Positions 42,242 through 43,703 of a stretch of 64,000 nt of DNA are shown here, one piece after another. Numbering within the stretch: position 1 is the stretch's first letter; every line of letters begins with the position of its first letter. Made by a program: the position numbers and the translations under genes. This DNA comes from Sphingobacterium faecium (GTDB lineage Bacteria; Bacteroidota; Bacteroidia; Sphingobacteriales; Sphingobacteriaceae): NCBI RefSeq assembly GCF_003054045.1, contig NZ_QBKH01000002.1, forward strand, positions 1 to 64,000, given 5' to 3'. The notes beneath the pieces are model-generated. The model saw only the letters and a program-made list of their open reading frames with translations. It did not search any database and was not told where the DNA came from.

Positions 42242-43495
42242 TTATAGGCCAAATGAAGCCTTCACTTGATCAACATAATCTAGTTTTTCCCAAGTAAATA
42301 GTTCTACTTCGATTATTTTTTTATCTCCATTTGAGTTTTCAAATTCTTTAGTAACTTTTTTAGGAGTTCTACCCATGTGTCCGTAAGCAGCCGTCTCCGA
42401 ATAAATCGGATTTCTTAAACCTAAACGAGTTTCAATTCCGTAAGGTGTCATGTCAAAGATCTCCGTTATTTTTGATGCAATTTGACTATCATTTAAATTC
42501 ACTTTACCTGTGCCGTAGGTATTCACGTAAATACCCATAGGGTCTTTTACACCAATAGCGTATGAAATTTGAACTAAAATTTCATCGGCAATACCTGCTG
42601 CGACTAAATTTTTAGCAATATGACGAGTTGCATATGCAGCAGAGCGGTCAACTTTGGAAGGATCTTTTCCTGAGAAAGCTCCTCCACCATGAGCACCTTT
42701 ACCTCCATACGTATCTACAATAATTTTACGACCTGTTAAGCCCGTATCTCCATGAGGACCACCAATTACAAATTTTCCTGTAGGATTAATGTGAAATTTG
42801 ATTTCATCATTAAATAGACTTTGCAACTCCGGCTTTAACTGTGCTTTGACTCGTGGTATTAAGATATTTTTAATATCAGCTGTGATTTGGTCACGCATCT
42901 CTTCTTCAGTTGAAAAATCATCATGTTGTGTTGAGATTACGATCGTATCAATTCGAGCAGGTTTGTGATCTTCTGTATATTCTAAGGTTACTTGTGACTT
43001 TGCATCTGGACGTAGGTAGGTAATCTCTTTATTTTCACGACGCAGTACCGCTAATTCATAAAGTAAGCGATGTGACAGATCTAAAGCTAGTGGCATATAG
43101 TTATCCGTTTCATTGCTTGCATATCCAAACATGATGCCTTGGTCACCCGCGCCTTGATCCTGTTTTGCTTTACGATCTACACCTTGATTGATATCTGCAG
43201 ATTGTTCATGGATGGCTGATAACACACCACAAGAATTTGCTTCAAACATATATTCAGATTTCGTATAACCAATGCGTTCGATTACTGAACGGGTTATTTT
43301 TTGAACGTCTAAATATATTTTTGATTTCACTTCCCCAGCAAGAACAACTTGCCCAGTTGTTACTAAAGTTTCGATTGCAACGCGTGCATCTTCGTCCCAA
43401 GCTAAAAAATTGTCAATCAGTGCATCTGAAATTTGATCAGCAATTTTGTCTGGATGTCCTTCTGAAACAGATTCGGACGTAAATAAGTAAGCCAT
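42242..43495 (-). CDS. metK: S-adenosylmethionine synthetase
   Basis: MetK makes S-adenosylmethionine from methionine and ATP. The 417-residue product has the N-terminal [19 protein letters not shown] motif with metal and ATP ligands, the signature [12 protein letters not shown] (about 115-126) and the P-loop-like [19 protein letters not shown] (about 265-283). It is slightly longer than E. coli MetK (384), as in other Bacteroidota. It is monocistronic, between the shared terminator and a structured leader of about 170 nt, which suggests regulation at the RNA level. Confidence 0.97.
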
Positions 43496-43520
43496 ATTAC
43501 CTTTTTTATTTATATAATAA

Positions 43521-43648
43521 GGATTTGCGTTGGAGAGGTTTTCAATAGAAAAGTGCTAAATAGCCTTGCTACATGATGGTTTTAGCACTTTTTTACTGTG
43601 GTTGCAATCTCCTGTTATATTCTCATTAAGAATAAACTACGCAAATCA
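43521..43648 (-). ncRNA. Structured metK leader RNA, candidate riboswitch
   Basis: Read on the minus strand, GATTTGCGT (43647-43639) pairs perfectly with ACGCAAATC (43530-43522), closing an element of about 126 nt. Inside, TATTCT/AGAATA (43634-43629 with 43623-43618) makes a small hairpin; GGAGA (43612-43608) pairs with TCTCC (43536-43532); and AAGTGCTAAA (43590-43581) pairs with TTTAGCACTT (43560-43551), capped by TAGC-AAG-GCTA. It starts about 20 nt after the predicted transcription start and ends 26 nt before the metK ATG. GCAACC and GTGCTAA occur as in SAM-I-clan cores, but the rest of that consensus is not visible. Confidence 0.6.
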
Positions 43649-43672
43649 ATCCACATTTTTTTATTGTCGACA

Positions 43673-43703
43673 CAAAACTACAATACTTTCTGTTAAGATT
43701 AAA
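43673..43703 (-). promoter_or_regulatory. Promoter of metK
   Basis: On the minus strand TTTA (43703-43700), a 19-bp spacer, and TAGTTTTG (43680-43673), an exact -7 box. The predicted start near 43669 gives a leader of about 173 nt that contains the whole structured element. Confidence 0.55.

Follow-up and report, generated by a model that had tools for sequence, protein, structure and literature searches.

The leader of metK in Sphingobacterium faecium raises the question of which kind of SAM sensor it carries, and by which route the state of that sensor would reach the gene. Within the window (i.e., the whole analysed stretch of 64,000 nucleotides), metK occupies positions 42242-43495 on the minus strand and encodes a methionine adenosyltransferase of 417 aa; its name, given already in the first-pass annotation, is correct according to the curated equivalog model TIGR01034 (506 bits). 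The leader comprises roughly 173 nt on the minus strand, 5' of metK. A Bacteroidota-type -7 box, TAGTTTTG (TAnnTTTG), is situated ahead of it at 43673-43680 (minus strand) and marks the putative promoter that had been proposed there; a TAnnTTTG box is found 5' of the aptamer described below in 104 of 110 related leaders.

In an Rfam search of the whole window, the only riboswitch found is the SAM-II (long loop) aptamer RF01726 at 43572-43660 on the minus strand (score 55.1 bits, gathering threshold 44 bits, E 8e-8). The alignment spans model positions 1-60 of 60, every pair in it is standard, and it contains stem P1 (5' strand UGUGG, 43651-43655; 3' strand CCACA, 43597-43601; both minus strand) as well as the conserved SAM-II strings GAUUUG, GAUUGCAACC and UGCUAAA. 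When the published SAM-II topology is applied to the aptamer sequence, the strands assigned to the P2 pseudoknot are UUU (43643-43645), GCA (43603-43605), UGC (43585-43587) and AAA (43581-43583), which are complementary by sequence. The long loop holds an extra hairpin (43614-43637, minus strand), which is predicted by folding and fits both states of the leader discussed below. That the metK leader carries a SAM-II aptamer is practically certain, and binding of SAM by this RNA is to be expected from its sequence.

The earlier suggestion of a SAM-type riboswitch in front of metK is hence supported by the RF01726 match, whereas the two forms in which it had been put forward, an undescribed class or a divergent member of the SAM-I clan, are not: RF01726 is matched confidently and over its full length, SAM-I-clan and SAM-IV models gave no Rfam match at E up to 1 between 43400 and 43800, and no other Rfam family besides SAM-II matched the leader. 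The strings GCAACC and GTGCTAA, taken previously as core elements of the SAM-I type, are both conserved SAM-II positions (GAUUGCAACC ... UGCUAAA). A new or SAM-I-clan-like class, for which the metK context and the strong structure could be adduced, can practically be discarded, given these matches and given that the homologues across the family all read as SAM-II. The comparison with the Rfam SAM models consequently refutes novelty of the sensor, not its function: class and setting were both known before, by which a false lead to a new riboswitch class is removed and the leader is settled as belonging to a known class.

A study of 2005 (PMC1273637) already recorded SAM-II from the Bacteroides group, and the long-loop form RF01726 has been listed for Bacteroidetes, and also for marine sequences, since 2010 (Weinberg et al. 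2010, PMC2864571). With RF01726, the metK leader agrees in phylum and, along the entire model, in the sequence and structure of the aptamer; no difference exists in the aptamer core, and the extra loop hairpin fits the description as 'long loop'. With the SAM-II/metA element RF00521 (PMC1273637, 2005) it shares the single stem P1 and the pseudoknot P2, and also the expected OFF switch and a transcription start just before P1. The aptamer in front of metK is the sole copy in the genome. Within the genus, 89 of 94 genomes have it; in the family it was found in 288 of 301 genomes, spread over 23 of 25 genera, and in a sample of the phylum in 21 of 148. A leader nearly the same as that of the window is present in Sphingobacterium sp. 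B16, which adds one member to the window's clade and was recovered by a scan of genome contigs.

The four helices described in the first-pass annotation are all present at their positions in the leader, and all belong to its minimum-energy fold. On the minus strand, the aptamer loop strand GATTTGCGT (43639-43647), which includes the UUU thought to form P2, is perfectly complementary over 9 bp to ACGCAAATC (43522-43530); the aptamer strand GGAGA (43608-43612) pairs over 5 bp with TCTCC (43532-43536); and the aptamer 3' strand AAGTGCTAAA (43581-43590), which is assigned to P2, pairs over 10 bp with TTTAGCACTT (43551-43560), a stem capped by TAGCAAGGCTA at 43561-43571. The first two of these helices are recognized from fold and sequence, while for the third, changes in relatives are added, compensatory ones in the case of TTTAGCACTT. 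The fourth helix, seen in the predicted fold, is the hairpin at about 43614-43637. The SAM-II aptamer itself had escaped the first-pass annotation, and so had the use of aptamer strands by three of the four helices. The fold as a whole reaches -42.5 kcal/mol (z = -4.1; none of 200 shuffles equals it), and when shuffling is restricted to the part of the window's leader downstream of the aptamer, z is -5.5.

The 9-, 5- and 10-bp helices join aptamer strands to downstream strands in nested order. Because they occupy strands that P2 needs, this alternative fold and the SAM-II pseudoknot are mutually exclusive, and the three helices probably represent the SAM-free conformation, reached by strand exchange. 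In computed energies, in which neither pseudoknot nor ligand is included, the nested hairpin (-37.8 kcal/mol) outweighs P1 alone (-13.6 kcal/mol) plus the downstream fold (-9.9 kcal/mol), from which we infer that the choice between the folds would be made co-transcriptionally and under kinetic control.

Concerning the conservation of the downstream strand, a set of 110 distinct leaders, later enlarged to 185, was compared. The joint fold worsens when the downstream strand is shuffled (mean z -1.25 in the genus and likewise in other genera), and in the window's clade the corresponding values range from z -2.8 to -6.6. Tested against the aptamer 3' half with dinucleotide shuffles, the downstream strand gives genus means of z -1.06 +/- 0.21, and negative values, which mark a complementarity beyond that of the shuffles, are obtained in 12 of 15 genera. 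The partner strands vary by lineage, and many single leaders are insignificant alone: in the window's clade, the pairing is AAGUGCUAAA:UUUAGCACUU, in another part of the genus AGGAGAUUGCAAC with GUUGCA..UCUCCU, and in genus g18 GAUUGCAA..AAUGC with GCGUU..UUGCAAUC. Single-segment tests place the segment around GATTGCAACC below shuffles both in the genus and in the other genera, and the GTGG..GATTTG segment not below shuffles. For 6-nt complements to GATTGCAACC, the count in the genus, 6/63, agrees with the 5.0 expected, and that in other genera, 12/47, exceeds the expected 5.6.

The stem of the window recurs in genus g14 as AAXUGCUAA:UURGCRX'UU, and when the window's clade is counted in, 31 leaders give 19 different stem rows with 94.7% of the cells paired. 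Of the 19 rows, 9 have G-C at the variable position X, 8 have U-A, and 2 have a mispair; to place the anti strand, its RGC anchor was used and not the X' base. Neither the observed pairing nor the covariation score was reached by any of 500 shuffles, and registers slid by 1-3 columns were only 23-50% paired. Among the ten leaders with X = A, seven (genera g5 and g18) carry GCAUU or GCGUU. Two-sided change is limited to this one column, since the aptamer side is nearly invariant, and the G-C/U-A change within g14 may go back to a single evolutionary event. Taken from sequence comparison, a strand-exchange platform downstream of the aptamer is very likely.

Further observations concern the same part of the leader in relatives. 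In g14, g15 and g21, another anti-aptamer form is seen, in which the A-rich aptamer strand GUAAAAAAAAGUG has its complement in CUUUUUUAC or CACUUNNUUUUAC further downstream. In g14 leaders such as L150-L169, a small hairpin of the form CCUG-N4-6-CAGG recurs downstream of the aptamer, and two leaders (L023 and L030) contain an insertion of more than 100 nt with inverted repeats of its own between aptamer and start codon.

Our preferred reading is that of a SAM-II (long-loop) switch which turns metK OFF at plentiful SAM by strand exchange, to which we assign a probability of roughly 0.7; the OFF logic, taken by itself, is highly likely. The aptamer would be transcribed first and, with SAM, would close into P1 and the P2 pseudoknot. 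Without SAM, the 60 nt that follow, which contain the aptamer-complementary strands UUUAGCACUU, UCUCC and ACGCAAAUC, would invade the aptamer to form the long nested hairpin, such that the downstream strand would be occupied and metK expressed. If SAM is bound, the downstream strand would stay free and repress metK, in Sphingobacterium faecium most likely through pairing of AGGCUAUUUAGCACUUUUCUAUU (43544-43566) with the stretch at 43489-43510 that holds the SD-like sequence and the start codon. Sequence comparison supports the aptamer, the exclusion of one pairing by the other and the conservation of the alternative pairing; the readout is the weakest step of the proposed mechanism.

For the readout in Sphingobacterium faecium, start-codon masking at the level of translation appears as the likeliest single candidate, which we put forward tentatively. 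On the minus strand, the strand AGGCTATTTAGCACTTTTCTATT (43544-43566) might sequester the start region when SAM is bound, and a possible partner is the region of the SD-like AAAAAAGG and the start codon (43489-43510); when the downstream part is folded alone, the freed strand pairs with the start region at -9.9 kcal/mol in leader L001, similarly in L015, L018 and L071, and in L019 a 7-bp part of the pairing is kept at the start codon. Modelling the bound state by folding the leader without the aptamer, RBS accessibility is on average unchanged between the modelled states in the genus (0.54 vs 0.57), and the mean change in RBS opening energy amounts to +0.2 and +0.5 kcal/mol. In the window's leader, RBS opening is 6.7 in the free vs 5.8 in the bound state, and therefore no extra masking results. 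In the family, the downstream strand is complementary to the RBS only at chance level (z +0.13 and +0.17), such that accessibility, opening energy and complementarity all give no support to a family-wide RBS sequestration. Direct occlusion as in other SAM-II switches was rejected likewise: the aptamer ends at 43572 and the start codon is at 43495, and the RBS thus lies outside the aptamer 3' strand.

Despite the general similarity in sensor, the metK leader differs in this respect from the known SAM-II systems. The compact metX SAM-II (PDB 2QWY; PMC10907184, PMC5352136), for which 'direct occlusion' is described, belongs to the same H-type pseudoknot sensor class, but carries the RBS in the aptamer 3' strand, whereas in the metK leader 76 nt separate the end of the aptamer from the gene. 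The metZ and metA switches of Sinorhizobium meliloti (PMC9373788) adopt alternative structures with and without SAM, as predicted for the metK leader; however, neither the predicted Rho-independent terminator that metZ forms with SAM nor the SD hidden next to the aptamer in metA (both PMC9373788) is seen here. In fluoride, ZTP and purine riboswitches (treated or cited in PMC13273304), the aptamer is invaded from downstream if no ligand holds it, as in the present proposal, whereas these riboswitches feed a terminator; no family relation to them exists.

The first-pass annotation had considered the 10-bp stem as an attenuator. The stem itself (GUGCUAAA:UUUAGCAC) is preceded by A6 and followed by UUUUC, and -11.5 kcal/mol are computed for 43551-43590; the U run comprises only four residues, however, and a scan between aptamer and metK found no intrinsic terminator or terminator-like site. 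Since the stem uses the aptamer's own 3' strand, it can form only without SAM, and as a terminator it would therefore let SAM activate metK, which is the wrong logic. In other lineages the alternative stem is not followed by a U run. The attenuator is accordingly doubtful to the point of being very improbable. A different kind of termination would be gated by the aptamer if SAM left the downstream strand unpaired and G-poor for Rho to load before metK, with the nested hairpin holding this strand in the SAM-free state. Rho is encoded in the genome, modelling of the bound state raises the unpaired fraction of the freed strand from 0.43 to 0.57, outside the genus this strand shows hardly any intrinsic structure (z 0.08; within the genus, z is -0.62), and it is C-rich and G-poor across the family (genus G 0.10, C 0.23). 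This composition may, on the other side, merely follow from complementarity to the purine-rich aptamer, and in the window's leader C minus G is ordinary (20% of windows are as high, and so are 4 of 25 other leaders). A rut site in this leader is not supported, with neither a marked C excess nor rut-like C spacing found, and Rho loading lacks support across the family as well; we regard gating of Rho as rather unlikely, though far less so than the attenuator.

It is also conceivable that the aptamer alone does the work and switches by other means, with the downstream complementarity being incidental or lineage-specific drift. The variation of the partner strands among lineages and the insignificance of many single leaders would fit this; the genus means given above, the compensatory G-C/U-A change, and a start codon too distant for direct occlusion argue against it, as does the observation that leaders lacking the aptamer also lack the whole downstream strand or a large share of it. 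These apparent losses were found among ten family genomes without a match to the covariance model, all ten of which possess metK. In nine of their metK leaders (L221-L227, L229 and L230) the aptamer is absent and the downstream leader is wholly or mostly gone too: in eight the leader is short, a -7-like box lies about 20-40 nt from the start, and neither aptamer nor platform can be recognised; L221, with its aptamer deleted, retains just the distal leader part. In the tenth (L228, from genome G290), a palindromic insert, cccgatagctatcggg, interrupts the aptamer beside the GCAACC strand, and the covariance model missed it. Independent action of the aptamer is therefore improbable, and the natural losses of the leader within the family constitute ready-made comparisons.

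Returning to the switch by strand exchange, the platform would lack both an intrinsic terminator and a conserved RBS sequestor, and for this reason its readout in Sphingobacteriaceae might be one undescribed for SAM-II. The chance that metK in this family is preceded by a SAM-II riboswitch with a conserved long-range anti-aptamer platform of this kind is, in our estimate, a little short of even; if true, such a readout could consist, for example, in masking of the start codon by a strand particular to the lineage, in mRNA decay or in Rho loading. The platform would constitute at most a lineage variant. In the literature searched, no paper working out the SAM-II readout in Bacteroidota was found, and publications on Bacteroidetes SAM-II, on Rho together with riboswitches and on anti-aptamer platforms yielded nothing on the metK readout. 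The leader would offer a testable model for how SAM-II works with the aptamer far from the start codon and the terminator absent.

Elsewhere in the window, two tandem 5S rRNA genes are situated on the plus strand at 1-87 and 170-281, about 80 nt apart, the first of them being cut by the window edge.
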